From Hemileia vastatrix (lineage: Eukaryota > Basidiomycota > Pucciniomycetes > Pucciniales > Zaghouaniaceae): a DNA stretch of 64,000 bases. Made by a program: the position numbers and the translations under genes. Shown piece after piece: positions 24,390-55,565 of this stretch. Position 1 is the first letter of the stretch, and each line of letters opens with the position of its first letter. The stretch spans positions 24,327,501-24,391,500 of the forward strand of contig JASXTE010000016.1 of the NCBI GenBank assembly GCA_030280995.1, written 5' to 3'. The notes below the pieces were generated by a model. That model was not told the DNA's origin and did not search any database. It saw nothing but the letters and a program-made list of their open reading frames with translations.

Positions 24390-25330
24390 TTTGTTGGGTA
24401 ATTAGTGGTTACTGAAGATGATAAAGTTATTATAAAAGATGAAGAACATTTGTATTTTATGAATGATTTTGGGATGGTTGATTTGAAGTTGGATACTGAG
24501 GATTATTACCCTCAGGTTTTTACTTTATAAGCAGAGAATGTCTGCAATGAAAATCTGAATATGGCTAATGGATCTACAATAGTGAAAGAAGCTGGTGATG
24601 GAGCTAGGGTTATGGTAGATGAAGATGTTATTATGGGGGTAAAGATGGCAATGTGGGTCCTTAAGAGGTTCCCAGGTCCAAGGATGTTATAAATTAAGTT
24701 TAGTATGAAAGGACAGTTGTGGCTGGTCAAAATGATGTGATAGATAATGTTATTGCTGCATTAATGAAGGGTGAAGAGGCGTTTAAAGATGGGGTGAATA
24801 ATTTGGATTCAGCAAAAATTTGGAAAAAGGTGGCTTATTTTTTATGTCATTCGGTAGGACAAATTCTGGTGAATTGTTTTTTTTATTTTTTGGAATTGGT
24901 GGAATTGATATTGGAGAAAATATATGGGTTTCTACTAGGGGATATAAAAATATAATTTCTCTGAAAAGAGGATAAACTACCTAAAACTGTTTAAATATAT
25001 TAATTATTATCTTTTCTATTATTTCTTTTGGATTTTTTTTATTTTTTTTATTTTTTATTTCTGTCTTCCCCCTGAACAAGGATAAACTGCATTTCAAAAA
25101 GTCAACATCAAGAAAAAAAAATTCTCAGAATAATCAAATAAAACATCAATAACAAAATTTATATAATTTTTCTCATTCTGGCCTCCAGCATAAGGATAAA
25201 CTGTAATTTTCATATCAAAATCAACAAAAAAATCTTAGTATATTTAATTCAAAAAAAAACAATATTTGTGATGGTTCTATTTCTTTCCTCCAGAAAGAGT
25301 TTAAACTGACAACTTTATTTACTGGTGATT
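24390..25330 (+). pseudogene. Gyp-2 gag-protease linker remnant
   Basis: Broken frames. EAGDGARVMVDEDVIMG (about 24590-24640) matches Gyp-1 EAGDGVRVIKSEDVIMGG. The open piece 24719-24955 is hydrophobic and unrecognised. No DSG protease motif was found, so protease seems deleted. At 24965-25320 there are four degenerate copies of the stem-loop motif (AGAGGATAAACTA, CAAGGATAAACTGC, TAAGGATAAACTGT, GAGTTTAAACTGAC), in the place where Gyp-1 has its translated copies. Confidence 0.6.
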
Positions 25331-25928: not shown

Positions 25929-27070
25929 TATGGTAAGGTAAACTCTTACAGTCGCCTTGCTGTAAGCAGAATTGGGAGGAGATGTGTGGATTTAGCTGAA
26001 AACCCCGTCCTTCCAATAAAAAATAACAAAATGGGAATTCTAAATCACTAAGCTAACCAGTCTACTTGGATCTGATTGATAAAAAATAATGAAACTCTAA
26101 AATATTTAACGCTTATTGAGATTGAAAGAAAGTGGCTGTTTAGAATGAAATACTGAATACAACAATTAAGGTGTACCAGTGAAAGATCTGAAAAGATTGA
26201 CTTTTATGTTTTATAATAATTTAAATTTTTATGAGACAGCAATAATCAAGTCCCAGTGGTGAAGACCTTTCTAAAGATACCCTATATAAAGTGTGATTTA
26301 AATTGTTGAATTGTATTTCTAAAATGTTATGTAAAAAATAATAAATGTTATAAGGGTATTATAACTTATTTAATTTGTTGAGTAATAAAAAATGAGACCG
26401 TGGTGGTTAAAGATTAAGCTGTATGTTCTCTGATGATTCCCAGACGATTCCCAATTTCGAGTCTGAAAGGCTCTTAAGTATACCTAGTCACGTTCCTAAT
26501 TTTCCCCTTCAGAGCTCACCCAGAGTCAATCCGGAGCCTCCGCAGTCCGTACGGAGTCCAAGCGGAGTCTGTCCGGAGTCCAAACGGAGTCCGTCCAGAA
26601 CTCCTGACTCAATTGAAACCCTTTAAACTATAATAAAAAATATAGAAAAATTACGCATGATAGAGCCACTTCTCCTTTACTTTCCCAACTAATTTTTGTA
26701 GCCTGCGCAGCTCTAATCACCCTGTGAAAATTCATCAAAGTTAAGTATTTTTCTAAAAACATAAGTATTTCTATAAAACTTTAAAATTCATTTAAAAATA
26801 TAAGAAAATTAGTATAAATTCTGGGAAAATTTCCCAAGGTTCTTGAGTGACTCGACTTGATACTTATAAATTTTTCAGACCGTAAAAAATAAGTCTTCTC
26901 CGCAAAATATATTGTTTTTGCGTAGGCATTCGCTTTTAACCAATTTTCTTTATATTTAAAACTCAAATAAATTTAATAAAACCCTTTTATAAAATAATGA
27001 CGCCAATCTTGCACGTCGTAATAACACCATTTACGTACTTAGGTGCCATACTAAACTTTAGGCTACCAAA
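25929..27070 (-). mobile_element. Gyp-1 3' LTR (left copy)
   Basis: Nearly identical to 38394-39502. In plus orientation it starts TATGGTAAGG and ends GGCTACCA. It contains about five CGGAGTCC-like units at 26530-26600; the other LTR has fewer, explaining most of its 33-bp shorter length. The LTR start (minus) reads TTTGGTAGCC against TGTGGTAGCC in the other copy. Confidence 0.9.
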
Positions 27071-28204: not shown

Positions 28205-28490
28205 AAATGGCCTAACACTCACCACACAATATGGGGGGCGGACTTGCTAGCAAGTCCGCAACCTTGGACCCAAACTCACCATAGATTGAACACACATTGA
28301 GCTATTGATAAAGGAACCATACAATCAGGGATGAACACCACTCAGCAGAACAGTTTTAGGTGGGTGTTCAAGTAGAGTTCAGTATGGGTTCAGTCTGAGT
28401 TCAGTCTGAGTTCCATCTGAGTTCCATCTGAGTTCAGGTTGAGGACTTGCTAGCAAGTCCACCCCCTATATTGCGTAGTGACTGAGGCAC
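28205..28490. mobile_element. MITE-like element with palindromic termini
   Basis: Inverted terminal repeats of about 45 bp. The left end contains ACAATATGGGGGGCGGACTT and the right end, in reverse complement, GCAATATAGGGGGTGGACTT. Each continues into GGACTTGCTAGCAAGTCC; the left copy is a perfect 22-bp palindrome (28238-28259), the right an 18-bp palindrome (28443-28460). The interior has six 11-bp units of the GAGTTCAGTCT type (28374-28440). No transposase. It is inserted between antisense genes B and C. Target duplication unclear (A-rich). Confidence 0.7.
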
Positions 28491-28743: not shown

Positions 28744-29211
28744 CCAGTTTAGAGTCTTAGTGGACAGTGATAAATTAAAAGATTGAATTGAGTTATCCAA
28801 ACAAGACTGAAATTCCAGTTTAAAGTCTTGGTGGACCAAACATATAATCGATTGCCAGTTTATGGTCTTGGTGGACCAAATATCGTTTAGGTGCATAAAT
28901 AACTTGATATATTCCTAAATAAGGCCTAGGCTTGACCAAAGATTGAAAAAATTTGATAATCCAGTTTAATGTCATAGTGGACCAAACATTTGATCGACAA
29001 GTAATCCAGTATAAGGCCATAGTGGTCCAATGAATGTTGAATTATCCTGCAGATATTAATTTTCCAGTTTAAAGTCATAGTGGACTAAACAATGAATGAA
29101 CTACCAGTTTAAAGTCATGGTGGACCAAACATTTGATTGATAAGAAATCCAGTTTAAGGTCATGGTGGACCCAACAACTTGATAATAGTCCAGTTTAGGG
29201 TCTTGGTGGAC
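28744..29211 (-). repeat. Array of nine stem-loop motifs upstream of gene C
   Basis: Copies start at 28744, 28815, 28855, 28961, 29006, 29064, 29104, 29149 and 29190, about 22 bp each, most 40-45 bp apart. Read in the gag-pol direction (minus): GTC-CACCAA-GAC then TTTAAACTGG, with variants CACTAT, CACCAT and CACTAA in the loop. The copy at 29006 has ACC...GGC, which changes the middle T-A pair to C-G. Spacers are unrelated. The array ends about 95 bp before the ATG of gene C. Confidence 0.9.
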
Positions 29212-29305
29212 CTAACAACTTCTCTATCCTTGAACCCAGATTTTGCCACCAGCTTTCTTCATTCTAGCTTCAAGTTTTCTTCTTCAAAAAATATCTCCTA
29301 ACAAG

Positions 29306-30318
29306 ATGAAACCTACTGACTTCATTGCTTCAGCTGATCAATCTTGCAAATATTGTGCTTTCACCCATAGGGAATGTATCTTCACTTTCAACTGGCAAAA
29401 TCACACTTATAACAGGGCCTGTTTATCCTGTTATGAGAAGAAAAGAAAATGTTCTGGCTTGAATTATGGTTCTTTCCCCATTACTGCTACTAGCTTCGCC
29501 TCCTTCTGCAAACCTCCTCCTTCTTCACCTTCTACTCCACCCCCTATTCCATCAACTTTTAAAGATCCTATCCCTTTTTCTCCATCAGCCTATTTAAATC
29601 TTTCTTCATCACCTAATCCTCTGGGTCCTTCTCTCCAATCTAGACTTGCTGCTACTCCCCCAAGAACTCTTACTGCTCCCAGGTCCATGCTTCAACCTTC
29701 AAAAAATTCTTCTCCTACTTCCAACATCTTGAAGCACAAAAGGTCCTATAATAGCCAGCAATCTTCATCTTCGCTTGTTTCATCCAAAAAGCCCAGAACA
29801 TCTACTTCAAACTCCAAATCCAACACCAGTCCTCCTCATCTATCAAAAATTAAAAATCCTTTTTTAAACATAAAAAATCCAACTCCATTACCAAGTAAGC
29901 CATTTATCTATGATCTTGATAGTGTTGACACAGGTTAGTTGTCCCTTTTTATTTTCTTTAATCTTCAGGTTTTAATATTGCTGATATTTTAATTTGATAA
30001 GCGTCCACCAGTTCTCCAATTTCATATTCAGCTTATGAACTACCAGAAACTAATCCAAGCTTCCCTAGAGTTCCAATTCACCTAGTGTCTGAAAATCTCT
30101 TTGCTAATTTTAATAACCTTATTGCTTATTTCCAACAATACCCGCCCTCTGATAGATCAGAATCTTGGATGAGAGAACAACTGTTAAGAGACCTTTTCAA
30201 AATAGCCAACTGGCTTCAACACTATCATGACCGTAAAATAAGATTCGAATCCCAGGAAATCGATCAAGGTCCTTCTAAATTTTCTAATTACGATTCTTCA
30301 AAAGATAACAACCCTTGA
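29306..30318 (+). CDS. Gene C: antisense Zn2Cys6-spaced accessory gene of Gyp-1, intact
   Basis: Two exons join in frame: 29306-29933 and 30002-30318 (GTTAGT donor, TTGATAAG acceptor), giving 314 aa. Residues about 12-47 form CKYCAFTHREC-x14-CLSCYEKKRKC (C-x2-C-x6-C-x14-C-x2-C-x6-C). Spacing fits a Zn2Cys6 domain, but the basic residues sit in the second half. A long Ser/Pro-rich region follows (PPPSSPSTPPPIPSTFKDPI) with KHKRSYNS and SSKKPRTSTS basic patches that could be nuclear signals. The C-terminal domain has NNLIAYFQQYPPSDRSESWM and a helical tail. It is convergent with integrase, between pol and the 3' LTR. The open frame against a decayed partner suggests recent constraint (inference). 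Function unknown. Confidence 0.8.
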
Positions 30319-31378
30319 TGGTGCTCTTCCTGGTATGTATCTTTCTTGAATAATGTTTGAAAAATAATAATATAAACATCTAAACTACCTAAAACTAAAA
30401 TACCTTTTATTTATTTATTTATTTATATTTTTAGTTATTTATTATTTAATTTAATTTAATTTAATTTAATTTAATTTTATTTATTTTTATTTTTATTTTT
30501 TTTTCCTTTAATAAATGTTTTTATTTTATTTTTTATTTTTTTTAATTTTAATTTAATTTAATTTTTTTTTTAATTTAAAATAAAAGATTTTTAAAAAAGA
30601 TAGTTTTGAAATAAAAGTTAAAATTTAATTTTTAAAGAAAGATAAACGAATGTGAAAAGAAAGATAAAAAAAGTAATAAAAAAAATTTCAAAATAAAATT
30701 TTAAAAGATGCCCCCCGGCCATTTGATGAGCCGTACCCTTGACATCATACCCACATCCAAGTGCAACTTGATGTGGTTACACAATTTGGAGAAATTAAAA
30801 AGAAAGAAAATAAATGAAAGTTTTTAGAAGATAATTTATATAATGATGATCACTGGGTGGGCTCCCTCCAATTTATAAAAATGATTAGAGACCACCAGTG
30901 AGCATCACCTTTAGAATAATTCATAATATATATTAAAGAAAAGGAATCACAATCTAACATAAAAAAAATTAAAAACAAAATAAAATAAAGAATCTTGAAT
31001 CCGGCATTGAGAAGGGTGTCTCTTGATTCGTCCCAGTTTATAGTCTTAGTGGACTTCCTATAATTAAAAGACAAAGCCAGGATTCAACTAGAAACAGGGA
31101 AAATTTTGGAAACAAACATTATGGGGTAATTGTGTATAGAGCAGCCAGCCCATCAATTACCCCCACACTTGCCAATATTTAAATTAAGAAGGTTCCCCTG
31201 TGAACACTTCTTCCAATAAAAATTTAAAATTTTCCAACACTATCTTCACCCATATTATAAGAATTTTAAATTTTGAAAATTTCAAAGAAGGTTTTCTTGC
31301 ATTCCGTTAAGTTTCATCACATCTTCGTTGCCCACATGCAGTGTAACAACTGTAAAGTATTTTTGATAAAAAAAGATA
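30319..31378. other. Gyp-1 region between gene C and pol: simple repeats and conserved hairpins
   Basis: 30400-30560 is TTTAT/TTTAA simple sequence. Three inverted repeats recur in Gyp-2. First, CCACATC-CAAGT/ACTTG-ATGTGG near 30750-30775. Second, a block beginning TGATCACTGGGTGGGCTCCC (30847-30903) that pairs imperfectly with CCACCAGTGAGCATCA. Third, GGGGTAATTG-N-CAATTACCCC with perfect 10-bp arms (31122-31163). One stem-loop motif copy lies at about 31032-31055. No protein-coding frame. Confidence 0.7.
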
Positions 31379-31495
31379 GTTTATCCTCGTTGCAGAGGTT
31401 GATAAGATTTTTATAAACATCATAGTTTATCCTCATTGCAGAGGTATCCATAAAATTTTGTCGATATCATAGTTTATCCTCATTGCGGAGGAAGA
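31379..31495 (-). repeat. Three stem-loop motif copies at the end of Gyp-1 pol
   Basis: In pol sense: CCTC-CGCAAT-GAGG, CCTC-TGCAAT-GAGG and CCTC-TGCAAC-GAGG, each followed by ATAAACTATG or ATAAACTATC, about 45 bp apart. The first overlaps the last codons of integrase (LRNEDKL). The stem has changed from GTC/GAC to CCTC/GAGG while pairing is kept. Confidence 0.85.
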
Positions 31496-33608
31496 CTTTG
31501 GCACTCCTGGTGCCTCTAGGATAGAACCCTTTCACTTGATTGGCCGCTACCCTCTTCTTCAATTCAACTCCATCCAACTCTTCTAACACATATGAACCGC
31601 CGGAAACTTGCTCCTTGATTTTATACGGTCCATTCCACCTATCTGCAAACATCTTTCCCCACTGACTTTCCAAACTCCTATTATACACCAGGACCATATC
31701 ACCTGGGTTCAAAGGTTTCCTTAATTGATGTGCCAACCGCTCATCCCAATATCTAACTGATTGATTTCTGATCTTCATCATCTGCGAATATGCCTTTTCT
31801 AAATATTCTTCTTTCTTTTCTAGCTGCATCATTCTTGCACACAATAATTTATCAGAAGTTTTGACCGTGTCACAGTCAACTCCAAGATATGATTCAGCTT
31901 CTAAATCAACTGGTAAAACTGCTTTCTGTCCAAAAACAAGTTCATAAGGTGAAAATCCGGTCGTCCTTTGCACAGTGATTCGATCAGCAAATAAAACTAA
32001 AGGTAAATAGTGCCTCCACTTTTTGGCACTTGTCCCACACATTTTAACTAAAGCATCCTTGATAACTTGATGCCCTCTTTCAACCATGCCTTCAGCTTCA
32101 GGATAATATGGGGTTGCTACCCTAACCTTTGATCCAACTTTCAATACGGCCTCTTTAAACTCTGTCCCAAATTCACGACCTCCATCTACCGTCACCAACT
32201 TCACCACCCCATACCTATATACCCAATTATTCAACAAAAATTCTGCCACATTTTTGGCAGTTAAATTAATAAGAGGCGCTGCCTCTACCCAACAAGATAA
32301 ATCATCTCTGGCCACAATTAAATATTTATACTGTCCCTCTTTTATATGAACGGCATCTAAACTAACTCTTCCAAAGAGCATATATTCACCAGTCGCGCGT
32401 CCAGGTTCTTTTGACCTTAAATAACTTTGTCTTTGACATTCTTCGCATGACTGAACCCACTGTTTAACAGCCATCTTCATGCCAGGCCACCAAAATTGAT
32501 CAGAAATTCTTCTAAATGTTTCTCCAACGCCTCTATGTCCGAGATCTTCATGCAGTGATTTCAAAACTAATTCTTGCCCCTTCTGTTGAGTTATAACTAC
32601 TTGAGGTTTTGGATACCTTCTCCTCATTAAACATTGACCAGATAGGTAAAACGTAGATGAATTCCTCTTGATAGCCATCCATTCATTGTCTTCACAATCT
32701 TCTGGCCTCTCTAAAGTCAACAAATATTTGACTAACAAAAAATAAAAACCAGTCTGACCCCAGACTTCATCTTGAAAATCAATTAATATAACATCAATAG
32801 GGACTTCTCTATCACCAATATCACCTGCACATGAATGAGCCAATAATCTTTGACCCCTAAATAAATCTTTAATTGAGCCATGTTGACGTTTTTCTTCTGA
32901 ACCTTTGGATCCTTCGTAAACTGTATTTGAAAATTCCTCTTTCTCTTTATCCACCTTTTTATTTAAATTCTCTAATTCTAAAACATATACACCATTCCTC
33001 AACTTACTACTATCCCACACTACCAATCCATCTTCCTCTACATACACCACATCTTCTTCTACCTCCTTTCTACCGAATTTATCTACACCTTTTCCAACAC
33101 CTTTATTAACATAAAAACTATTTTCCAGTTTATCCTCTTGGTGGAGGTCATCATCACCATAATCTAAACACAATAATCCTGCCAGTTTAACCTCATAGGG
33201 AAGGTATGGAAAGTCTTCAGCTCCTTTAGTGCTGGCTTTGATAATAGGTATATCTTCATCAAACTCTTCTGAGTCTGAATCTTCTTCAGTGGGTGGTCTC
33301 CTTGATAAACCATCTGGCATAGTAAAAGGTTTTCCAGGCTTATGAACTAAATCAAACAAAAAATGTTGAATAAAAGCTACCCATCTCGTCATGGGTGGGT
33401 TCGGTAAACTTGGGGAATTAATCATCTGGATTAACGATTTCGCATCCACTTGCAACTCAAAATGTTGCCCCCACAAAATATGCTGAAGTTTCTTCAGAAT
33501 TTTTGCCACACCACATAATTCCAATTTTGGTTGAGAATATCTTGATTCGACCTCAGTAAATACTAAAGATTCATACCTAACTGGCCTGATGTAACCAGCT
33601 TTATCCAT
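31467..33608 (-). CDS. Gyp-1 RNase H (C-terminal part) and integrase
   Basis: 713 codons beginning just after an in-frame TAG (33609-33611) that replaces CAG; MDKAGYIRPVRYE is internal to RNase H. RNase H motifs: PKLELCGVAKILKKL, LQVDAKSLIQMI and HKPGKPFTMPDGLSRR. A linker with acidic stretches carries two translated stem-loop motif copies (LHQEDKLENS, LPYEVKLAGL). The integrase zinc domain is HEDLGHRGVGETFRR...CEECQR. The catalytic core is complete: D in LDAVHIKEG, D in VTVDGGREFG and E in EGMVERGHQ. The C-terminus is GDMVLVYNRSLE and RWNGPYKIKEQVSGGSYVLE. No chromodomain. The protein would insert element cDNA into the host genome. Confidence 0.9.
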   Translation of the reverse strand: MDKAGYIRPVRYESLVFTEVESRYSQPKLELCGVAKILKKLQHILWGQHFELQVDAKSLIQMINSPSLPNPPMTRWVAFIQHFLFDLVHKPGKPFTMPDGLSRRPPTEEDSDSEEFDEDIPIIKASTKGAEDFPYLPYEVKLAGLLCLDYGDDDLHQEDKLENSFYVNKGVGKGVDKFGRKEVEEDVVYVEEDGLVVWDSSKLRNGVYVLELENLNKKVDKEKEEFSNTVYEGSKGSEEKRQHGSIKDLFRGQRLLAHSCAGDIGDREVPIDVILIDFQDEVWGQTGFYFLLVKYLLTLERPEDCEDNEWMAIKRNSSTFYLSGQCLMRRRYPKPQVVITQQKGQELVLKSLHEDLGHRGVGETFRRISDQFWWPGMKMAVKQWVQSCEECQRQSYLRSKEPGRATGEYMLFGRVSLDAVHIKEGQYKYLIVARDDLSCWVEAAPLINLTAKNVAEFLLNNWVYRYGVVKLVTVDGGREFGTEFKEAVLKVGSKVRVATPYYPEAEGMVERGHQVIKDALVKMCGTSAKKWRHYLPLVLFADRITVQRTTGFSPYELVFGQKAVLPVDLEAESYLGVDCDTVKTSDKLLCARMMQLEKKEEYLEKAYSQMMKIRNQSVRYWDERLAHQLRKPLNPGDMVLVYNRSLESQWGKMFADRWNGPYKIKEQVSGGSYVLEELDGVELKKRVAANQVKGFYPRGTRSAKVFLRNEDKL

Positions 33609-33986: not shown

Positions 33987-35452
33987 GAAAATTTTAAACC
34001 TGAAATAGTTAAACCAGCCTCTTCAATTCGAAACAAGATTCTTTCTAATGTAATTGCAAACTCCCAAATGAATTTGCGTATCCTGGGATTCTCTTCCAAC
34101 ACCTGGTTATCATAGTCGGTTGTTGGTCCCTTAATTCCTCTATCATCTATAAAGATTCCAGAATATTGTGGAATTTCGTCTTGAAGGATCCAAGCCATCT
34201 GAGCTTGATAAACTGCAACCAAATTTGTTGCTCCTTGAGGTAATCTTGTTAACTGTAAATGTCCTAGTGGTGTATTGAATATAGTGAGAGGCCTTGAGTC
34301 CGGATGTAACTCTCTCTCATCATATCCACCCATAATATCTCCCAAACCATAACACACTCTCCCTGCAAACGCTTCAACAAACTCCTCAGCACTAGGTGGT
34401 ATCCCAGCATCCTTTATTGTAACCCTATTTAATTCCCTAAGATCATGAACAACTCTAAGCTTGCCATTCGGTTTCTTGATACAAAATACCGGACTAGAAT
34501 AACTTGACATTGATTTCTCATACAGTCCAGTGTGTATCCATTCTCTGAAAACTTCAATATAGGCTTCTTTTAATGCAGCCGGAATAGAAATTGGTTTCTG
34601 CTGCCACGGTTCATGACATCCCACAGGAATCTTGTAAGACTCCCCATAGGAATGCTTCAACACACCTCTCTCCTCTTCTACAAAAGCAATGGCCTTCTCT
34701 CGCTTGACCATCACATCCAACAACAACTTCTTCTCTTCTCCAGACAACCAACCATCAGGTCCAAAATTAACAACACCCAGTCTCTCAAAAGTGATTCTTG
34801 ATGTCTCAGAAAATTCAGGCGGATTCTTTACCAAGGGACTTTCATAAGGATCTCTTGATAACCTTGGTCTTCTCAAGGGTGGATTTAATTTGGCAGGTAG
34901 CGGTTCATTAATAGGTCGAACTTTATTTGCTACTTTCTTATATTTGGCTGCGTCCACATCTAAATAAACTTGAGGTAAAACATTTTCTTTTGTATCGCCA
35001 TTAAAAATTTCATCAAATAAATCTTCTTCATCGTCAGAATCAGAATAAGAAAAATTAGAAAAATATTTTATTTCATTTTTAAATTTTACCCTTTTCTCTC
35101 TTCCCTCGTCTAATTTATAAACAGATTTTCCAACACCTTTGCTTCCCTTATCCAACATTAAATCACCCGTAAAGAAAGTTGGCAGTTTAACCTCTTGCTG
35201 GAGGTCCGGAATGGAATTTTCACAAAAATTATTTTTTTGTGTTTTAATTATACCGAGATTTTTTATCGGATTTTGATAAGATTTTTGAAGTTTACCCTCT
35301 TGCTGGAGGTCCATAATAGAAGGAGATACTTGCAGTTTAACCTCTTTCTGGAGGTCATAAAACATACCCTTCCAATTTTTATCCAACCTAATTTGGCCCA
35401 TTTTGCCTTTTTTACCATTTTTAAATTTAATAGAAAAACAGGGTAAATCCAA
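33875..35452 (-). CDS. Gyp-1 reverse transcriptase
   Basis: The first third is a linker with three translated copies of the stem-loop motif (FYDLQKEVKLQ, IMDLQQEGKLQ, IPDLQQEVKLP; 35182-35355). Then NKVRPINEPLPAKLNPPLRR and SRITFERLGVVNFGPDGW. The polymerase follows: YSSPVFCIKKPNGKLRVVHD, LRELNRVTIKDAGIPPSAEE, GLGDIMGGYDERELHPDSRP and LTRLPQGATNLVAVYQAQMA. The catalytic box is FIDD (YSGIFIDDRGIKG) instead of the usual YxDD; Gyp-2 has FIDD too, so it is a lineage trait. The last residues after CVPALEIL are out of frame because of a 1-nt deletion. The apparent start is a TTG; upstream stops separate it from protease. Confidence 0.9.
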   Translation of the reverse strand: MDLPCFSIKFKNGKKGKMGQIRLDKNWKGMFYDLQKEVKLQVSPSIMDLQQEGKLQKSYQNPIKNLGIIKTQKNNFCENSIPDLQQEVKLPTFFTGDLMLDKGSKGVGKSVYKLDEGREKRVKFKNEIKYFSNFSYSDSDDEEDLFDEIFNGDTKENVLPQVYLDVDAAKYKKVANKVRPINEPLPAKLNPPLRRPRLSRDPYESPLVKNPPEFSETSRITFERLGVVNFGPDGWLSGEEKKLLLDVMVKREKAIAFVEEERGVLKHSYGESYKIPVGCHEPWQQKPISIPAALKEAYIEVFREWIHTGLYEKSMSSYSSPVFCIKKPNGKLRVVHDLRELNRVTIKDAGIPPSAEEFVEAFAGRVCYGLGDIMGGYDERELHPDSRPLTIFNTPLGHLQLTRLPQGATNLVAVYQAQMAWILQDEIPQYSGIFIDDRGIKGPTTDYDNQVLEENPRIRKFIWEFAITLERILFRIEEAGLTISGLKFSCCVPALEILAMWYVERVGLCPRRKLTKFSPGQDPRI

Positions 35453-38393: not shown

Positions 38394-39502
38394 TATGGTA
38401 AGGTAAACTCTTACAGTTGCCTTGCTGTAAGCAGAATACGGAGGAGATGTGTGGATTTAGCTGAAAACCCCATCCTTCCAATAAAAAATAACAAAATGGG
38501 AATTCTAAATCACTAAGCTAACCGGTCTACTTGGATCTGATTGATAAAAAATAATGAAACTCTAAAATATTTAACGCTTATCAAGATTTAAAGAAAGTGG
38601 CTGTTGAGAATGAAATACTGAATACAACAATTAAGGTGTACCAGTGAAAGATCTGAAAAGATTGACTTTTATGCTTTATAATAATTTAAATTTTTATGAG
38701 ACAGCAATAATCAAGTCCCAGTGATGAAGAACTTTCTAAAGATACCCTATATGAAGTGTGATTTAAATTGTTGAATTGTATTTCTAAAATGTTATGTAAA
38801 AAAAAATAAATGTTATAAGGGTATTATAACTTATTTAATTTGTTGAGTAATAAAAAATGAGACCGTGGTGGTTAAAGATTAATCTGTATGTTCTCTGATG
38901 ATTCCCAGACAATGCCCAATTTCGAGTCTGAAAGGCTCTTAAGTATACCTAGTCACGTGCCTAATTTTCCCCTTCAGAGCTCACCCAGAGTCAATCCGGA
39001 GCCTCCGGAGTCCAAACAGAGTCCGTCCGGAGCTCCAGACTCAATTAAAACCCTTTAAACTATAATAAAAAATATCGAAAAACTAAGAATGATAGAGCCA
39101 CTTCTCCTTTACTTTCCAAACTAATTTTCGTAGCCTGCGCAGCTCTAATCACCCTGTGAAGATTCATCAAAGTTAAGTATTTTTCTAAAAACGTAAGTAT
39201 TTCTATAAAACTTTAAAATTCATTTAAAAATATAAGAAAATTAGTATAAATTCTGGGAAAATTTCCCAAGGTTCTTGAGTGACTCAACTTGATACTTATA
39301 AATTTTTCAGACCGTAAAAAATAAGTCTTCTCCATAAAATATATTGTTTTTGCGTAGGCATTCGCTTTTAACCAATTTTCTTTAAATTTAAAACTCAAAT
39401 AAATTTAATAAAACCCTTTTATAAAATAATGACGCCAATCTTGCACGCCGTAATAACTCCATTTACGTACTTAGGTGACATACTAAACTTTAGGCTACCA
39501 CA
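38394..39502 (-). mobile_element. Gyp-1 5' LTR (right copy)
   Basis: Minus strand: starts TGTGGTAGCCTAAAG and ends CTTACCATA. Near-identical to 25929-27070 apart from scattered substitutions and a contracted CGGAGTCC repeat (about 39000-39025). The high similarity indicates a fairly recent insertion compared with Gyp-2. Confidence 0.9.
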
Positions 39503-40370: not shown

Positions 40371-41144
40371 GGGGAAGATATTATCTTGCACAAGTTATAT
40401 TATTGGAAAGATGAAGGCCATATTTATTTAGCAGTGGATTCAAGTCAAATTTCTGCAGGGGTGATTCGGTCTCAAAAGTATAAATCTGGTTATATTAGAC
40501 TTTTCATTTATTAATCTGTGGTTTTTACTGAGGTGGAATCAAGATATTCTCAACCAAAATTAGAACTTTGTGGTGGGACAAAAATCTTAATGAAACTTCA
40601 AAATATTTTATAAGGACAACATTTTGAATTGCAAGTTGATGCTAAATCTTTGATTCAAATGATCAACTCCCCTAGTTTACCTAATGTGCCCTTGAATAGA
40701 TGGGTAGCTTTCATTCAACATTTTTTTTTTTGATTTAGTTCACAAGCCTGGAAAGATGTTTACTATGCCTGATGGCTTATAAAGAAGACCTCCTACCAAA
40801 GAAGATTCTGACTCAGAGGAACTTGCTGAAGATATACCTGTAATAAAGTAGAGTTAAAAAGATGCTGAAGGCTTTCCTTACAACCCCTATGAGGTTAAAT
40901 TCAAAGTATTAATATCTGAGGGTAGAGATGATGAATACCTCCACCATGAGAATAAACTGGAAAATAAAAAAATATGGTAAATTATGTGCTTGGGGAGTTT
41001 GATGATGGTGTAGATAAAATCTGTAAAAAAGTGGTTGGAGATTTTGTGTATATGGATGAGGATGGTGAAATAATTTGGGATAGTAAAAATTTGGTGAATG
41101 GTGTATATGTTAGAGTTTTAGAAAATTTTGATAAAGAGAGGTTG
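40371..41144 (+). pseudogene. Gyp-2 RNase H and linker remnant
   Basis: Broken frames: IYLAVDSSQISAGV, PKLELCGGTKILMKLQN, LQVDAKSLIQMINSPSLP and VHKPGKMFTMPDGL, then an acidic linker corresponding to Gyp-1. Degenerate motif copies lie at about 40885-40910 (CCTATGAGGTTAAATT) and 40935-40960 (CTCCACCATGAGAATAAACT). It ends at the Gyp-3 insertion, whose 5-bp target duplication is GGTTG (41140-41144). Confidence 0.75.
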
Positions 41145-42275
41145 TGTCGGTCAGTCGTCTAGAAGAGGGAAGAAGAAGGGGAAGAAAGAGAGGAGGACAA
41201 AGAGGTAATGGTGATTGGAGAAATAAAAGAAATAAATTCTAATAAAATTATTTATTTTATTGAAGAGAAAGCAACGACAAGTAATTTGAGAGGTGACACA
41301 AAATTGGGTTTTATTAATAATAATATTATTTCAAGTAAGGGCTATGCGCGGCAGACACTTTGATTACTATCAGACTTAAAGCAACCTTTAAATTGTTATA
41401 TAGAATTTTAATTAGAATTTTATTACTAATAAAAAGAATATAAATGTAATATAAAAGTATATTAAGTTTTTTGAGTGTATAGTAAGTGATGGGGCTACAG
41501 GGGATTAACCAAGGCCTTTTTATAGGCAATGGGCCCTCTGAAGCGCTACTATATTTGTAAATACAAGAAATATAATAGAATGAAACAAGAATCTAAAAGA
41601 ATAAGTGAAACATAACAATGTAGAGGAAAATATGAAACAAATAATTAAAAACCCCAATTAAGAATCCAATCTTCCCACAATTAATTCCCAAATCAGTAAG
41701 TAAAAATAGTGAATAACTAAACAAGCCTGGAACATCGGAACTATGAGAAAAATAATTCAAAACAGATGGTACAGTCTGATTTAAGGATTTTTAAGTGAAA
41801 CAAAAAATATTCTGAGGCAAAAAAATATGTAATTAATTTCAATTTAGTATTAGTTAGTTTTTCCTGACACAATTATTGTTCAAAAGAAGCGTCATTATTT
41901 ATTGTTCAATACTGTAAAAAATTATAATGAATATATAAATATAAATAATTAATTTAATTATATTATAAGTAAATTTTACACTTAAAATTATAATATATGT
42001 TTTTAATTAATTGAATATAAATTTATAATTATTAAATACATAAAAATGCACCATTATTTGTAGAATATAATATATATTATGTTTAATTTAAATGTATAAA
42101 AAATTTATATAAACAATAAAATTAATATAACACTTATATGTAGTAAGATACTTATATAATTTTATTATGCAACAAAATATTAATTTATATACATTAAATA
42201 CAATTCTTATGCCCTCTTTCAGGTCCTATAAGTTAACATATCATTTACTGAGCTCCTGGAATAGCCTGGCTGACA
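41145..42275 (-). mobile_element. Gyp-3 3' LTR (left copy)
   Basis: Plus orientation TGTCGGTCAG...CTGACA. Near-identical to 50219-51348. A TATA box (minus) in CCTATAAAAAGGCC lies at about 41512-41525. Confidence 0.92.
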
Positions 42276-42374
42276 CTCCCTCACTCTAAAAAAAACAATA
42301 AAAAAATGCTAAGATTTTTTCTTTTTGTATTTTTTCAACAGAGTAGGCAGATTTGAAATCTCCTTGCCAGGTAT

Positions 42375-43466
42375 CTATGCATCATGTTCAGATGATTTGT
42401 TCTTATATCTAAATAAATATTCAATACCTCTTTCAGAAGTGATAATTCTATCATTGAGAATTTTATCAATTTCTGCTGTTTCTGTGACTTCCTGAGGGTT
42501 TTTCTTAGGTCTTCCCCTTCTTTTGGGAAATAAGTCACTGTTGGAAGTATAAGGTTTAAGCAAAGAAATGGGAAAAACAGGATGTTTCCTATCATATGGA
42601 GAATACAATACAACTTCCACTGCATTATCACCAACCATTCTTTTAACAACAAATGGGCCTACAAAAGGATCTTTTAATTTGTGGTTACCTTGTAAATTGA
42701 AATGGACAGTAGAGATCAACACTTCATCACCCTTGTTAAATGTGTATTCTTTATGGGATTTATCCCATCTTTTCTTTTCATATTCAAATGCTTTATCAAT
42801 ACAGCTCTGAGCATGTTTTCTGCATAGCTGTTGCTTTTGCATGAAAGATATTACACCAGGGTGTATTTCCAACTTAGGTAATTTACTATTGAGAATCTGA
42901 GCAGGAGTATGTGGGACATAACCTAACCAAAGCTCAAAAGGCTTTTTCTCAGTGACAGAATGAACAGTGATATTATATGCAAATTCAAGACCAGGCAATA
43001 GAGTGACCCAATCATGAGTAAATCTTTCATTGTCTTTATATTCTAAACCAAAGGCGCAATACCTTCTAATCATATCTTCCAGAGTTTGAATCATTTTCAC
43101 AGCTAGACCATCAGTCTGAGGATGGTGAGCTGTAGACAATTTTAACTCACAGCCGCAAATATCCATCAAAGAGGTCCAAAACTCAGAAGTAAATTTAGGA
43201 TCCCTATCAGAGATAATGGCTTTTGGAAAACCAATAATATTAAACATGTAAGACCACCATAAGAAAGCTAATTCTTTGGTGGATACATCTTTGTGGGTTT
43301 GAATAAATTTGCACATTTTTGTGAATCTATCTACTATTACCCAACAATAGTTAAAGCTGTCTTTACCTGCAACAGGAAGACCAGTGACAAAATCCATATT
43401 AATGATTTGCCAGGGAGCATTAGGTGCTTCAATATTTTGTAATAACCCTGCTCTCTTACCTTTCAA
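42375..43466 (-). pseudogene. Gyp-3 integrase with truncated chromodomain
   Basis: Integrase core: WQIINMDFVTGLPVAGKDSF (first D), AIISDRDPKFTSEFWTSLM (second D), then HHPQTDGLAVKMIQTLEDMI, where the catalytic Glu (AER/AEK in relatives) is Val (GAG to GTG, near 43100). This alone should abolish strand transfer. The C-terminal part is FNKGDEVLISTVHFNLQG and KHPVFPISLLKPY, then KRRGRPKKNPQE and a degenerate chromodomain (EIDKILNDRIITSERGIEYL). It is cut by TAG 42375-42377 where Trp (TGG) is expected before IPGKEI. Confidence 0.85.
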
Positions 43467-44695
43467 CCTTTTGATTTTTGGCAGGAGTCACATGATTCAA
43501 CATATAATTTTGTGTCTTCAGACATATTAGCCCACCATGAAGTGTTTTTGATTCTAATTAATGTTTTTTCAAGATCAAAATGACCAGCTAATATTTCATC
43601 ATGACAAAGTTTGAGGATAGTTTCTTTCATAGAAGTAGGAATTACAATTACATTAGTAAGCTTTCTTCTATAATATATATAACCATCTTCAATAGAAAAC
43701 TTTCCTTTACTCAAAGCATTTTGATACTTTGCAGGAAGAATTTTTATTAATGCTTGAATTGAAGCATTCTTAGGATCATTTAAGATAGTAACCAATTTAT
43801 TTAAATCAGAATCCTTCTCATATGAATCCAGTATTAATTGAAATAACTCGTCTTCCATATCTACTACAAATATACCATGGATATGAACAGTATCATCTTC
43901 AGGTATATAAGCAGGATTTGAGTCATTATTTGGCAGAGGTAATCTGGAGAGCATATCAACATTGGAGTGAAAATTTCCAGCCCTATGGATAATTGTCATG
44001 CGTCCTCTGTATTCTTGAACAGCAAGTTGCCACCTGAACATATGTCTGTTAGGTGTCTTCAGGTTTAATAGGGACTTCACAGCACTACAGTCAGTTACCA
44101 ATTCAAATTTTTGGTCATCTAGATAGTAATGAAGCTTCTCAAGAGCCCAAACAACTGCTAAGCACTCCAATTGAGTGGCACCATATTTCAATTCACTATT
44201 TCTTAAGGTTCTTGAAATATCACAAATTACAACCTCTGAGGATTTATCATTAATAATTTGTTTCTGGTGAAGGGCAGAACCCAGAACAATAAAGCTAGCA
44301 CCTGTATACAGGACAAATGGCTTGTTAAAATCTGGAAGAGCCAATATAGGGGCTGTCATTAAGCAAATTTTTAATGTATCAAAAGCTTTTTGACAGTCAT
44401 TATTCCAGAGAAAGGCAACATCTTTTCTGGTCAGTTTTGTAAGAGGCAAGGCTATGACCTGATAATTTTTAATATATTGTCTATAATAGCCACACATCCC
44501 CAAAAAACTTTGGATTTCTCTTACAGAAGTTGATACTTTCACATTTTGGATGGCAGCAATTTTGTTTTGGTCTACACAAATTTGTAAGCCTGACACAACA
44601 TGGCCAAGGACTTTCAAAGATTGAAAACCAAATTTACACTTTTTTAAGGATAAGGTCATATTGATTTCATCCATTTTTTGGAAAACTCTATTCAA
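43463..44695 (-). CDS. Gyp-3 RT thumb, RNase H and integrase zinc domain
   Basis: Begins in frame after a lost T (44693 region): NRVFQKMDEINMTLSLKKCK, LGMCGYYRQYIKNYQVIALP and TKLTRKDVAFLWNNDCQKAF. RNase H: FVLYTGASFIVLGSALHQ (catalytic Asp replaced: LYTGAS where relatives have D), LECLAVVWALEKLHYYL, FELVTDCSAVKSLL and HRAGNFHSNVDMLSRLPLP. The integrase zinc domain is HDEILAGHFDLEKTLIRI...CDSCQKSK. It leaves frame near 43478 through an apparent single-A loss in an A run. Confidence 0.85.
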   Translation of the reverse strand: MNRVFQKMDEINMTLSLKKCKFGFQSLKVLGHVVSGLQICVDQNKIAAIQNVKVSTSVREIQSFLGMCGYYRQYIKNYQVIALPLTKLTRKDVAFLWNNDCQKAFDTLKICLMTAPILALPDFNKPFVLYTGASFIVLGSALHQKQIINDKSSEVVICDISRTLRNSELKYGATQLECLAVVWALEKLHYYLDDQKFELVTDCSAVKSLLNLKTPNRHMFRWQLAVQEYRGRMTIIHRAGNFHSNVDMLSRLPLPNNDSNPAYIPEDDTVHIHGIFVVDMEDELFQLILDSYEKDSDLNKLVTILNDPKNASIQALIKILPAKYQNALSKGKFSIEDGYIYYRRKLTNVIVIPTSMKETILKLCHDEILAGHFDLEKTLIRIKNTSWWANMSEDTKLYVESCDSCQKSKG

Positions 44696-46134
44696 TGAAT
44701 CATATGTTCATCAAAAGTTTTAGAAAAAACAATAATATCATCAATATAAACCATGAGCCATTCTTCAATAATTTCTTGATTGAAAGTGTTATCCATGACT
44801 TTCTGGAAAACTGAAGGAGCATTTTTAGGGCCAAATGGCATCCTAACATACTTATATATTCCCATATGAGTAGCAATAAGCAAAAAATTTTGAGAATTTT
44901 TCTCAACTGGAACTTGATGATAACCTTTATTACCATCCAGACAACTAATAAATTTTGCACCTTGCAAGGTAGCATGTATTGAATTAATTCTGGGTAAAGG
45001 ATAGATATCATCAACAGTATAAGTGTTCAAACCTCTGTAATCTCCACATAATCTAGCCTTATCTTTTTCATAAGAAATCAAGACTGGGGAGATGACACAA
45101 TATTTGGGGGTGACATCTACTTTATCAATGATATTCATTTTTAATAATGTTGCAATATTATCTTCAATATCTTTTCTTTTTGATGGAGAAGCAGGATATG
45201 GTTTTTTCTTAAGAGTAGGAGGAATATCACTCAAATTACAGGATAAGGCAATTTTCATTTCTTCCTGAACAATTCCCAAGACATGAGAACCATGAGCAAA
45301 AGCCATAGGGAAAGAGGTAATAGAGGCAATAATAGAATCCTTTTGTTCACTAGTCAACTGATTGCCAAAAGCAGTATTTATTTCATTTAATAAATCATCC
45401 ATTTCAGTTGTTGTTCTGCCTTTACACTGGATTAGTGAGTTACAAGACTTCAACAGATGCCCAGAAGGTTTTCTAGAAGAGGAAATTTTGAATTTCCTTT
45501 TGCCATTCATTCCTAAGATAAAGCAATTATTTTCTGGGTCCAATTTCACACCAAACATGGTTAAAATATCATTTCCAATAATAAACCACTTGCTTAAATT
45601 ATCATTTTTCATGACAAAAAATTCACAAATAGCTCTGACAAAACCACCATTATATTTGAAGAATACAGAGGTTTTGTATTTGCCAATAGGAATAAAGGTA
45701 GAACCATACCCTTTCCATTTTTCAGAAGTTATAGGTAATAATTTACTCAAATATTCCTTATCCACTGAAACTAAAGCTTTTTCAGACACTACACTTCCTC
45801 CAGCACGTGAATCAAGAACTACATCAACATTTTTACCATTAATGATAACAGGTGCCTTCAAAGGGGATGCATGTATAGAATTGTTAGTAATATCTTTAAT
45901 TATCTCAGAATTTTCTAGTGAAGATAAATCCAATACACATTCTTCAGATATATTATTTAAATAATGGACATCCTGTTCCAACATTAAAACATCTTTAACA
46001 GATTCATTGTCATAGGAGATATTACTTTCACAGTCACTAGAAGAATTATTGACATCAATTTCAACTTCATCAGTGTCTTCATTTTGTTCAACAAGATGAA
46101 TTTTCTTGTCACAAACATTACCCTTCTGCCACGG
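44692..46134 (-). CDS. Gyp-3 protease and reverse transcriptase
   Basis: An acidic N-terminal part (EDTDEVEIDVNNSSSDCES) precedes a degenerate retropepsin (VIINGKNVDVVLDSRAGGSV; DSR where DSG is expected). RT: KKKPYPASPSKRKDIEDNIA, KARLCGDYRGLNTYTVDDIY, FISCLDGNKGYHQVPVEKNS, YVRMPFGPKNAPSVFQKVMD and the canonical catalytic box VYIDDIIVFSKT. It ends at TGA after EHMIH because one T is missing relative to the continuation LNRVFQKMDE. The N-terminus is the second half of a zinc knuckle (WQKGNVC) split by the solo LTR. Confidence 0.85.
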   Translation of the reverse strand, partial: PWQKGNVCDKKIHLVEQNEDTDEVEIDVNNSSSDCESNISYDNESVKDVLMLEQDVHYLNNISEECVLDLSSLENSEIIKDITNNSIHASPLKAPVIINGKNVDVVLDSRAGGSVVSEKALVSVDKEYLSKLLPITSEKWKGYGSTFIPIGKYKTSVFFKYNGGFVRAICEFFVMKNDNLSKWFIIGNDILTMFGVKLDPENNCFILGMNGKRKFKISSSRKPSGHLLKSCNSLIQCKGRTTTEMDDLLNEINTAFGNQLTSEQKDSIIASITSFPMAFAHGSHVLGIVQEEMKIALSCNLSDIPPTLKKKPYPASPSKRKDIEDNIATLLKMNIIDKVDVTPKYCVISPVLISYEKDKARLCGDYRGLNTYTVDDIYPLPRINSIHATLQGAKFISCLDGNKGYHQVPVEKNSQNFLLIATHMGIYKYVRMPFGPKNAPSVFQKVMDNTFNQEIIEEWLMVYIDDIIVFSKTFDEHMIH

Positions 46135-47195
46135 TGTAGACAATCCTATAGTACTAGCTATAGGCCTTGACCAAGGGAGTTGGAGAAAAACCAGAGAGAA
46201 AATCCCCTGTCCCTTTAGAAAAATAGAGTGAGATTTACTTGCTAAAGTAAGTTGGTTCCTGTTTTGCTAAAGCTCCTTTTTAAACACACTTGACTGCTTG
46301 ATGAGCCAAGAAAGTAGTCCCCAGATAGACTACCACACCAGAGACAGCAAAGATACTTGATGTAGGCTGCAAATCCACACCAGAGACAGCAATAATACTT
46401 GCTATAGCTTGCAAGACTATAACAGAGAAAACAGTTGCCAAAGTTAAGTTAAATGAAGAACTCACTTGCAACAAACACAGCCAATTGTGGCCAGAAAACA
46501 GTGAAAACTGAGTGAGGAACAATGATATCACCTCCGGATGGTTGTATGATGATTAAGGCTGCCCCAAACTGTCTTATTCACTATGTACACACAGACCACT
46601 AACTAAGAGCCCATGCGAACCCACCACTCTGGCGCCTGTACCTGCCAAATTGCATAAAAAACCCTCCTGGAGTGCTCCCCAACCTCCTAAAACAGAGGCG
46701 GGCGGGCCACCCGACGTCGGAGATGCCGCCTGAAGCGACCTGGCCTCCCTGAAGCCAGAAAACCAATAAAAACCACTAATCTACATAGAAAAATTAGCTA
46801 CAACTACTAAAACCTTTAAAACACGGAATTTCACTATAACAACATTGAGACATGAAATATAGAGAAAAATTAGCTCTATCCAATGGTACTAAGAACTTAA
46901 CCCTATGACTTAAGGTTAGCCCGTAAAACATGAAAAAAAAATTAAACAGCAATCTTTTATAAATGAAAAATGAGGAAATGACCCCTTAAAACTCAGAATA
47001 TGAAAAATGTCTTCAAGACATAAAATATAGAGAAATACCAGGGCTATCCAATGACAGTACCCGCATACCTGCAGACCCAATATCCACGGAATAAAACCAG
47101 AAAAATACCAAATTCCTTATCAGATTTCAATTAAGACATGCACAAACAGCGCCAAATCACACAACAAAGGCCCCTGCCAATGTTGGAATACCACA
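46135..47195 (-). mobile_element. Solo R-type LTR inside Gyp-3
   Basis: Plus orientation TGTAGACAATCC to GGAATACCACA, flanked by ACGG (46131-46134 and 47196-47199). It lies between the gag zinc knuckle first half (CYKCNKP) and second half (WQKGNVC). No internal sequence of its own remains: LTR-LTR recombination is the usual explanation. Confidence 0.88.
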
Positions 47196-47519
47196 ACGGT
47201 TTGTTACATTTATAACAAGTATTTGTTGCATATTTTTAGGTGCAACTGGGGCAGAGGGTTTACCATGTTTTTCTGAGAGCTTTGTAGAAGGTTTATTCTG
47301 ATCATTATAAGATTTACCAAGGTAATTCTTTGGTTCATATCTATGGTTGAGTAGTACCTCATTACAGATATTAATGAAAGAAGAATGTTCCCTTACATGC
47401 TCAGTTCTAGCCATAATCAAATCTCTAAGAGAATTTGGTAATTTATAGAAGATTTTATCTCTCCAAATATCATAATCCATCTTTGGATCAATTGCTCTTA
47501 GGATTTTTGTCACTTTCAT
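47157..47519 (-). pseudogene. Gyp-3 gag C-terminal part with zinc knuckle
   Basis: LRAIDPKMDYDIWRDKIFYK, LPNSLRDLIMARTEHVREHS and FINICNEVLLNHRYEPKNYL; then, in the adjacent frame, CYKCNKP, interrupted by the solo LTR (the real sequence resumes at WQKGNVC, 46134). Nucleic-acid binding in the particle is the family role. Confidence 0.75.
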
Positions 47520-47828
47520 AAGAAAAACAATGGTCTTTTCAACAGAGGAGGATACATATCTAGTATTCTCATACAGTCTTTGCTGAGCTAACCTGAATTT
47601 TTAACCACCAAACTGATTCTTAATCAAGGATTTCCAATCATTTCATGTATAATGATTGTTATCTAGAAGAACAGATTCATACCACATCAAGGCTACATTG
47701 GAAAATAAAGAAATTAGCTTAGAAACAATTTCCTCATCAGGTAGTTTATAAGATCTCTTTAAATTATCAAATTTTTGGATAAAGTGTTGCCAATCAGAGG
47801 AAGAATCACCATCAAAGGTAGGATATTA
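47520..47828 (-). pseudogene. Gyp-3 gag capsid core with three stops
   Basis: In the frame of the large upstream ORF: YPTFDGDSSSDWQHFIQKF, KLPDEEIVSKLISLFSNVAL, MWYESVLLDNNHYT-stop-NDWKSL and QFGG-stop-KFRLAQQRLYENTR. Stops at about 47827 (TAA), 47645 (TGA) and 47600 (TAA) are consistent with C-to-T changes or A-rich codons. This is a typical gypsy capsid region. Confidence 0.75.
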
Positions 47829-49538: not shown

Positions 49539-50218
49539 AATAGTGGGAAGATTATTTAACTTGTAAAAAAATTAATAAAAGTTAGTTAATAATTGCTCCA
49601 AAATAAAAAAAAAATTTTAATTAATTAAATTATATAAAAAAATTTTTTAATATAAAGTAATATTTATAAAAAATTAATTAATAAAATGGATTGCAGAGTT
49701 AAATTGGAAATAAACAATCAAGATAATTCAACCAATTAATTAAATTACCAATATTAAATATGGCAATATATATGGGACTAAGCACAAAGTACTTTTAAGT
49801 CAACGAAAATTAACAATAATTAATAATAAAAAAAATTAATTTAATAATTCAATTTGTATTAATAATAATGTTAATTCTTCTAGGACTAAGAGGATTTAAC
49901 AATCTATAATGGTCAACTATGTAAAAAAAAATTATAATAATTGAACACTTACACTCAGTGAATCAGCAATTAAGCCACAATCACTGTTATTACAGTAAAA
50001 ATATAGTAATAAGAGTGAGAGGTGCAAAGGTGAACTTACTATAGTGATCGAAAAATCACTTCAAAATAATATAAGAATTAAAATAATATAAACCTAATAT
50101 ATCAAACCCAAGTTCGAAACACGGTCGCGGAAAAAGTTTCTTTTTTGCTAGGTGGTCTGTGTGTTTTTTGTTCGTCGCCAGGCTCGATCGTCGTCGTTGT
50201 TTAGGAAAGGTCCCCAGT
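49539..50218 (-). other. Gyp-3 5' leader
   Basis: AT-rich untranslated leader between the primer site and gag ATG. Possible weak splice sites (GGTAAGTTCACC-like at about 50040) exist, but nothing decides whether it is spliced. CGTCGTCGTT-type repeats lie next to the primer site (50186-50200). Confidence 0.5.
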
Positions 50219-51348
50219 TGTTGGTCAGTTGTCTAGAAGAGGGAAAAAGAAGCGGAAGAAAAAGAGGAGGAAAAAGGGGTAATGGTGATTTGAGAAATAA
50301 AAGAAATAAAGTCTAATAAAATTAATTAATTTATTGAAGAGAAAGCAACGACGAGTAATTTGAGAGGTGACACAAAATTGTGTTTTATTAATAATAATAT
50401 TATTTCAAGTAAGGGCTATGCACGGCAGACACTTTGATTACTATCAGACTTAAAGCAACCTTTAAATTGTTATATAGAATTTTAATTAGAATTTTATTAC
50501 TAATAAAAAGAATATAAACGTGATATAAAAGTATATTAAATTTGTTGAGTGTATAGTAAGTGATGGGGCTACAGGTGATTAACCAAGGCCTTTTTATAGG
50601 CAATGGGCCCTCTGAAGCGCTACTATATTTGTAAATACAAGAAATATAATAGAATGAAACAAGAATCTTAAAGAATTAGTGAAACATAAAAATGTAGAGA
50701 AAAATATGAAACAAATAATTAAAAACCCCAATTAAGAATCCAATTTTCCCACAATTAATTCCCAAATCAGTAAGTAAAAATAGTGAACAACTAAACAAGC
50801 CTGGAACATAGGAACTATGAGAAAAATAATTCAAAACAGATGGTACAGTCTGATTTAAGGATTTTTAAGTGAAACAAAAATTATTCTGACACAACAAAAT
50901 ATGTAATTAATTTCAATTTAGTATTAATTAGTTTTTCCTGACACAATTATGGGTCAAAAGAAGCGTCATTATTTATTGTTTAATACTATAAAAATGATAT
51001 TTAATATATAAATATAAATAATTAATTTAATTATATTATAAGTAAATTTTACACTTATAATTATAATATATGTTTTTAATTAATTAAATATAAATTTATA
51101 ATTATTAAATACATAAAAATGTGCCATTATTTGTAGAATATAATATATATTATGTTTAATTTAAATGTATAAAAAATTTATATAAACAATAAAATTTATA
51201 TAACACTTATATGTAATAAGATACTTATATAATTTTATTATGCAATAAAATATTAATTTATATACATTAAATAAAATTCTTATGCCCTCTTTCAGGTCCT
51301 ATAAGTTAACATATCATTTACTGGGCTCCTGGAATAGCCTGGCTGACA
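50219..51348 (-). mobile_element. Gyp-3 5' LTR (right copy)
   Basis: Plus orientation TGTTGGTCAG...GGCTGACA, followed by target duplicate GGTTG (51349-51353). The primer site on the minus strand, TGGGGACCTTTCC, begins at 50216. TATA box CCTATAAAAAGGCC near 50586-50600. Confidence 0.9.
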
Positions 51349-53880: not shown

Positions 53881-53909
53881 GTTGGATTCTATCTCAAGAT
53901 ATGCTGTTA

Positions 53910-55411: not shown

Positions 55412-55565
55412 GATCTGTAATGAGACAAAAATGAAGAGAAAAGAGATAAGAATATAATTTTTATCAGTGATGGGTAGATGATTAAATGAAAGTGGAAGTT
55501 CAGTAGGTTGGTTGTGGTGTATTGTGCATGGGATTGGCTCTGTCTTTTTATGCAAAGTGTGGAAA

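Follow-up and report, generated by a model that had tools for sequence, protein, structure and literature searches.

What reads a short motif that recurs, always in one orientation, through related retrotransposons of Hemileia vastatrix? Read antisense to pol, the motif has 22 letters with a dyad: CAGTTTA, one variable base, a 4-base arm, six bases and a second 4-base arm. Its copies are present in both coding and non-coding DNA of the elements. The stretch analysed, here called the window, comprises 64,000 nucleotides with 33% G+C and a CpG observed/expected ratio of 0.27, and belongs to a genome of 748 Mb in 791 contigs; its base composition and introns have a fungal look. The element Gyp-1 sits inserted in an older related element, which it interrupts, and its open reading frames (ORFs) match the Pfam protease, reverse transcriptase (RT), RNase H and integrase domains, the scores of RT and the integrase core lying just under the cut-off. 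Gyp-2 is a relative of Gyp-1 with pol on the + strand, and the two form an inverted pair (31990-32846 / 51523-52379). The block at 55.5-56.7 kb may be part of Gyp-2 or of another copy beside it. The features are collected in Table 1. In addition, 41145-51348 is taken up by a separate LTR element, whose pol lies on the - strand and which shows a possible 5-bp target duplication (GGTTG); no motif copies above threshold were found inside it.

Table 1. Motif copies, hairpin modules, genes and landmarks in the window.
Feature	Position	Strand	Remark
CTC-class or related copies 24979, 25203, 25308	24979-25309	-	older element interrupted by Gyp-1
Gyp-1 LTRs	near 25929-26871 and 38394-39303		pol on - strand
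Nine-copy array CCAGTTTA-N-NGTC-N6-GAC-N	28744-29212	+	directly upstream of gene C
Copy starts in this array	28744, 28815, 28855, 28961, 29006 (broken), 29064, 29104, 29149, 29190	+	
Gene C, antisense to pol	29306-30318	+	exon 29306-29933, predicted intron 29934-30001, exon 30002-30318
Single GTC-class copy	31034-31055	+	103 bp before hairpin module
Conserved hairpin module, Gyp-1	31119-31179	-	better RNA fold in pol sense
Three tandem CCTC-N6-GAGG copies	31377-31491	+	end of pol; starts 31377, 31423, 31470
CCTC-class copies 33126, 33183	33126-33204	+	pol ORF, between RNase H and integrase matches
CCTC-class copies 35183, 35288, 35333	35183-35354	+	RT-containing pol ORF, upstream of RT match
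CTC-class copy	40938-40960	-	other part of interrupted element; homologous to 33126
Hairpin module, Gyp-2	53109-53169	+	
Single GTC-class copy, Gyp-2	53233-53254	-	103 bp before Gyp-2 hairpin module
Gyp-2 array, like Gyp-1 array	53909-54186	-	no gene C behind
First open frame of C2, zinc-cluster relative of gene C	55106-55411	-	
TATA-like CATAAAAAG	55544-55552	-	between array and C2, by eye
Second Gyp-2 array	55565-55992	-	upstream of C2
Hairpin module within second Gyp-2 array	55752-55812	+	107 bp from motif copy
C1 remnant	56367-56687	-	two cluster cysteines changed

Copies were detected by a weight matrix that omits the outer and second stem columns and was trained on copies from the same sequence. 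A total of 336 kb was scanned, made up of the window (64 kb) and the sampled stretches L009-L028 (200 kb), L029 (8 kb) and L030-L037 (64 kb). The original prediction had counted about 18 copies in Gyp-1 and more than 15 in Gyp-2; the scan returned 17 above threshold plus the degraded copy 29006, that is 18, in the former, and 15 plus a broken copy at 54164-54186, that is 15-16, in the latter. The single orientation relative to pol was likewise borne out by all 36 window copies above threshold, the 55565-55992 block and the copies 24979 and 25203 being assigned to their element by position and not by a pol of their own. No copies above threshold were found in the Gyp-1 LTRs and 5' third (about 35.4-39.3 kb).

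At a score of at least 12 the 336 kb contain 135 copies, against 5.3 per Markov simulation, and at a score of at least 16 they contain 128, against 1.0 per simulated sequence. The geometry was analysed in 20 evenly spaced 10-kb stretches of the contig labelled C2, using 48 combinations of spacer and loop. Of the 763 tails with no more than one mismatch in these stretches, 62 precede three inner Watson-Crick pairs at the geometry of the motif, and 50 of the 62 are GTC/GAC (33) or CTC/GAG (17). The remaining combinations gave 7 to 32 paired tails, save for 58 at spacer 7 and loop 8, a value that represents the outer three pairs of the same dyad. The excess over simulation and over the other combinations led us to reject a chance origin. 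Across the genome, a narrower GTC/GAC sub-pattern occurs 13,871 times (6,986 + 6,885; control 0), and CAGTTTANAATCN6GACT occurs 390 times.

Tandem duplication of one ancestral stretch, which had been named in advance as one finding that would undo the original prediction if it accounted for the copies, does explain part of the array pattern, with periods of 40-41 bp at 28797-28880 and 29063-29218 and of 47 bp at 31376-31491; however, the 135 copies fall into 69 clusters by their flanks, the largest holding 20 and 10 copies. A repeat expansion of no present function, in which the unit would have spread by tandem duplication and exchange between elements and the dyad would stem from two founders, draws on these periods, on the two large clusters and on the division of the stems into two discrete classes. 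The many flank clusters argue against it, as does the GTC class, in which the core is conserved beside weakly conserved flanks (the tail being fixed by the search). Together with the codon pattern in pol given below, this makes such an expansion rather improbable. A separate short repeat, GAGTTCAGTCT, with a period of 11, lies at 28366-28443 between the Gyp-1 LTR and the motif array.

The two stem classes are (A/G)GTC-N6-GAC(T/C), which is mostly non-coding, and CCTC-N6-GAGG, which lies mostly in open pol frames. In the two columns left out of the matrix, Watson-Crick pairs occur in 113 (outer pair) and 121 (second pair) of the 135 copies. Among one representative for each of the 69 flank clusters the numbers are 55 and 61, compared with means of 29.0 and 35.4 and maxima of 43 and 49 in 20,000 shuffles, statistics that carry no correction for the tree of the copies. 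The second pair is nearly two-state (78 G-C, 43 C-G and 14 other among the 135 copies), and because the split between GTC/GAC and CTC/GAG is largely confounded with that between non-coding and coding copies, it may represent one ancestral double change. Hybrids of the classes are rare: 312 GTC/GAG and 247 CTC/GAC occur genome-wide (7 for each reversed-pattern control), against at least 13,871 copies of the one narrower GTC/GAC pattern. Cleaner covariation is provided by the outer pair within the GTC class, where the 41 representatives have 27 A-T, 6 G-C and 8 other combinations; 33 of the 41 are paired, the shuffle mean is 24.4, and one shuffle in 20,000 reached as high a number. Nevertheless, all six G-C copies belong to two related window arrays, so the change may reflect one or two events, and this confinement also counts in favour of repeat expansion. 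In the nine-copy array itself the three inner pairs are kept in eight copies and all four pairs in only four (28856, 29065, 29150 and 29191); in Gyp-1 pol, copy 33183 has an altered inner arm. Of the stem pairs said to change together, the supposed ACC/GGC variant is the broken copy 29006 (GGCC...GTCC). The evidence favours selection on the nucleotides of the dyad or stem, but does not establish the further step, for the motif, to a folded RNA or packaging signal.

The copies in pol bear on the same point. Copies lie within an open pol-sense frame of at least 60 codons in 30 of 43 cases for the CTC class, 13 of 78 for the GTC class and 4 of 14 for the others, so that the motif as a whole is not mainly non-coding in the manner of VANC motifs, the GTC class alone being so. 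The tandem copies 31377 and 31423 are located past the pol stop codon. The six copies in Gyp-1 pol ORFs share one frame and read LxxE[V/D/G]KL, five of them between or before the matched pol domains, and the unit might accordingly be taken for a peptide repeat (LxxE[VD]KL), for example a linker or protease site, whose dyad look would be fortuitous. A search for the peptide alone (L..E.KL in frames of at least 60 codons, related copies counted separately) gave 34 matches, 28 of which have GNT at the variable residue. Among the 28, CTC encodes the first Leu in 26, GAG the Glu and AAA the Lys in all, and CTG the last Leu in 23, whereas the background usage in the same frames is 11%, 35%, 66% and 14%, respectively; meanwhile the residue encoded by GNT varies among V, D, A and G. 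Synonymous positions that are nearly fixed while one amino acid varies indicate constraint on nucleotides, and the same core is found in non-coding arrays. A pure peptide repeat is rejected on these codons, and a peptide function of any such kind seems to us very improbable indeed.

If nucleotides are constrained, the constraint may act on RNA or on DNA. As an RNA signal, the motif would form a short hairpin in the pol sense and leave its UAAACUG tail single-stranded; Gag or an accessory protein would bind it to bring about export or packaging, alongside a larger neighbouring hairpin. The one orientation throughout is as expected for it, and so is nucleotide-level constraint on coding and non-coding copies alike, all of which would be carried in genomic RNA. 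The mismatched stem cells of all copies comprise 13 pol-sense G.U, 5 antisense G.U and 26 others; the lean of 13 against 5 has a one-sided p of 0.048, calculated on copies that are not independent. Among the flank-cluster representatives, however, the numbers are 5, 4 and 16, symmetric and close to the expectation for random mismatches. The stem also looks weak, the predicted median pairing probability of its inner pairs in local context being 0.19 in the pol sense and 0.06 in the antisense.

The larger neighbouring hairpin is a 61-base module with 21 copies over all loci, and for 19 of the 21 the distance to the start of the closest motif copy upstream is 103-111 bases. One exception is the L029 module, with which its stretch begins; judged by coordinates, motif copy L016:9934 precedes it by 106 bases. 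For the other, L018:5717, no motif copy is present within 400 bases. Folding of the module yields -13.57 kcal/mol in the pol sense and -3.92 kcal/mol on the other strand, a difference due to its commonest variants, which are exchanges of A-U for G.U (13/6 and 10/11) and a compensatory exchange of C-G for U-A (17/4); some cells are mismatched in both strands. There is good evidence that the module is a pol-sense RNA hairpin, although its 21 copies are closely related. No Rfam family matches over 31119-31179. A known RNA family was rejected, as no Rfam family reached its cut-off and the one hit was a sub-threshold snoRNA match (E 0.33; 21.9 bits against a cut-off of 42). Hammerhead ribozymes have an invariant core of CUGANGA and GAAA; in the module the core positions vary and GAAA is absent at its place in A4 (by eye), and this candidate was rejected too. 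The RNA signal keeps its weight mainly because the module is an RNA feature in spatial association with the motif. Set against the symmetric G.U counts, the weak stem, the lack of an Rfam family at cut-off, the Gyp-1 5' third without copies above threshold and the position of the array before gene C, we regard it as unlikely, though well worth keeping in view. A similar non-coding block was also seen by eye between array or gene C and pol in both elements (30690-30900 in Gyp-1, 53440-53620 in Gyp-2), with the common sequence ATTTGATGAGCC...TGACATC...CCCACATCCAA; ATGATCACTGGGTGGGCTCCCTCC.

Gene C, whose splice sites were predicted by eye, encodes a product of 314 aa with an N-terminal CX2CX6CX14CX2CX6C. 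A second zinc-cluster gene, C1, was observed upstream of C2 in Gyp-2-type elements (L016:6059-6472, L036:6386-7024 and the window remnant). C1 itself, a first relative of gene C, is present in L016, L036 and L030, and C2, a second relative, is present in L016, L013, L036 and the window, partly broken. The plan common to the C proteins is CX2CX6C-X12-18-CX2CX6C; the six cysteines are intact in Gyp-1 C, L016 C1 and C2 and L036 C1, and partly lost in window C2, the window C1 remnant, L030, L013 and L036 C2. In their native order five proteins score 17.9, 16.2, 13.6, 8.8 and 17.2 bits with PF00172, below the gathering cut-off of 21 bits. The start of the profile aligns with the second half of Gyp-1 C and of both C2, and its end with the first half of both C1. 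When the halves were swapped the score rose in all three cases (14.0 to 20.1, 19.2 to 25.8 and 9.4 to 13.7), one of the three constructs (25.8) passing the cut-off. With the order swapped, each half also aligns with a half of Leu3, though without significance (E of 8). The half-matches and the gain on swapping suggest that C is a Zn2Cys6-type zinc cluster with permuted halves and not a member of PF00172. Similar cysteine orders occur in other basidiomycete proteins. Protein database searches gave no match to the gene C protein at E<=0.001 and none to the C1 protein at E<=10; among viral contigs three stretches fitted a pattern, none of which was confirmed, and a further search of viral contigs gave none. 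The AlphaFold model of the zinc protein is poor (pLDDT 53.8).

The arrays stand in a defined relation to these genes. The Gyp-1 array ends 93 bp before the ATG of gene C, and in the window, L016 and L036 arrays end about 150 bp (up to 155) before that of C2. By eye, a TATA-like box lies 12-16 bp beyond the last copy in the window, L016, L036, L030 and L037, five loci with a C2-like start region, although the zinc pattern was found only in the first three; this spacing may reflect shared descent. The box looks eroded in L013, and none was seen after the array before Gyp-1 gene C (both by eye). In the case of C1, motif copies occur after the gene and none before it in the stretches examined, L030 having only 133 bases before C1. 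An element-encoded protein and motif arrays thus occur on the same element, the exceptions, where no zinc gene was found, being L018 and the stretch behind the Gyp-2 array 53909-54186. Arrays of this kind would be accounted for if the motif were a site for a host DNA-binding protein exploited by the elements; however, most sampled copies, the singles in L015 and the two in L019 apart, stand among others in element-like order, and we give a host-protein site little credence.

The zinc protein is a sensible candidate binder, and the reading we favour, tentatively and at a little under an even chance, is that the motif is a site in DNA recognised by a zinc-cluster protein that the element itself encodes, in the manner of VANC. 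The putative binder would be gene C in Gyp-1 and C1 or C2 in Gyp-2-type elements. The dyad arms, separated by six bases, would be read by the two halves of a dimer, and an extra contact would serve to read the CAGTTTA tail, which is present on one side. Through the arrays before C or C2 the protein would control its own gene, while the sites clustered in pol and between pol and the 3' LTR would flag the element to its own regulator, much as VANC labels VANDAL elements for anti-silencing. We infer, then, that C may bind the motif, dimerise, and regulate or de-silence the element. The position of the array before C and the DNA-binding look of C are the grounds for preferring DNA over RNA, and a dyad protein site fits somewhat better than a folded RNA; that the dyad columns keep Watson-Crick symmetry, that hybrids of the stem classes are rare, and that the representatives' mismatches have no G.U preference, favours it as well. 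Against a plain homodimer site stand the one-sided tail and the uniform orientation, which such a site does not need. Against a DNA site in general stand the copies inside pol, as VANC motifs are mainly non-coding, and the lack of copies above threshold in the LTRs and Gyp-1 5' third, the expected place for a transcriptional activator. The two arrays without a zinc gene, the missing Gyp-1 TATA-like box, the four of nine fully paired array copies, the native PF00172 scores below cut-off, the poor AlphaFold model and the pol-sense G.U lean weigh on the same side.

VANDAL is a DNA transposon of Arabidopsis. VANC21 is described as binding a motif of nine bases, whose arrays keep to one orientation and are found mainly in the non-coding DNA of VANDAL21 (PMC5735166), and a later paper ties VANDAL regions to RNA-directed DNA methylation (PMC10398659). 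The likeness lies in an element-encoded sequence-specific protein (putative in our case), in short one-orientation motif arrays, and in the expansion of these arrays through tandem repeats and their variation from one related element to another (PMC5735166). By contrast, the VANDAL motif, YAGTATTAY, has no dyad, the protein belongs to another family, and binding and de-methylation are demonstrated there and putative here. The plant Gypsy element Retand is described with a long pol-to-3'LTR region that holds repeat arrays as well as antisense ORFs, the latter coding for a TRP28 protein that probably binds DNA (PMC11963269). It resembles our elements in the pol-to-3'LTR layout, the antisense ORF of a predicted DNA-binding protein and the arrays, and differs in having a TRP28 domain instead of a zinc cluster and family-specific repeats, no shared dyad motif being described in the sections available (PMC11963269). 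In its plan the present system resembles VANC/VANDAL and Retand; what sets it apart is the protein family, the dyad and the presence of copies in coding sequence. Fungal Zn2Cys6 regulators such as Leu3 share the six-cysteine spacing, a basic half and a dyad target with a six-base spacer; here, the halves appear swapped, and the target lacks CGG and has a one-sided 7-base tail. Those of the Ppr1 type have CGG-N6-CCG sites.

Known RNA systems offer further parallels. The retroviral CTE has a repeated, structured RNA layout near the 3' end. With retroviral export elements (CTE/RTE) our elements would share repeated structured RNA near the 3' end, reported there (PMC1363727) and predicted here. 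In Cer1 an accessory protein is described as needed for export of the genomic RNA (PMC10309623), a difference being that CERV is encoded by spliced Cer1 mRNA. MS2-type packaging signals are similar in being multiple and dispersed through the genome (PMC6281560), and differ in that here a tail is conserved together with the stem and no copies were found in the Gyp-1 5' third.

One-orientation tags beside zinc-protein genes suggest a private recognition system, by analogy with plant transposons that escape silencing. More broadly, it is possible, if somewhat doubtful, that this Ty3/Gypsy lineage carries a private nucleotide code, present alike in coding and non-coding DNA and read by circularly permuted zinc-cluster proteins of its own, in which the two stem classes would be two words, the RNA hairpin would be coupled to them, and self-recognition would take place at the DNA level, the RNA level or both. 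No fungal element of this kind was found in the literature covered, which consisted of open-licence papers. Such codes could readily be tested for in other sequences by looking for nearly fixed synonymous sites beside a varying amino acid. Should C bind the motif, fungi would have a counterpart of the plant VANC and Retand systems in another element class and with another protein fold, and a retrotransposon could in this way spread across a genome of 748 Mb and yet address none but copies of itself.
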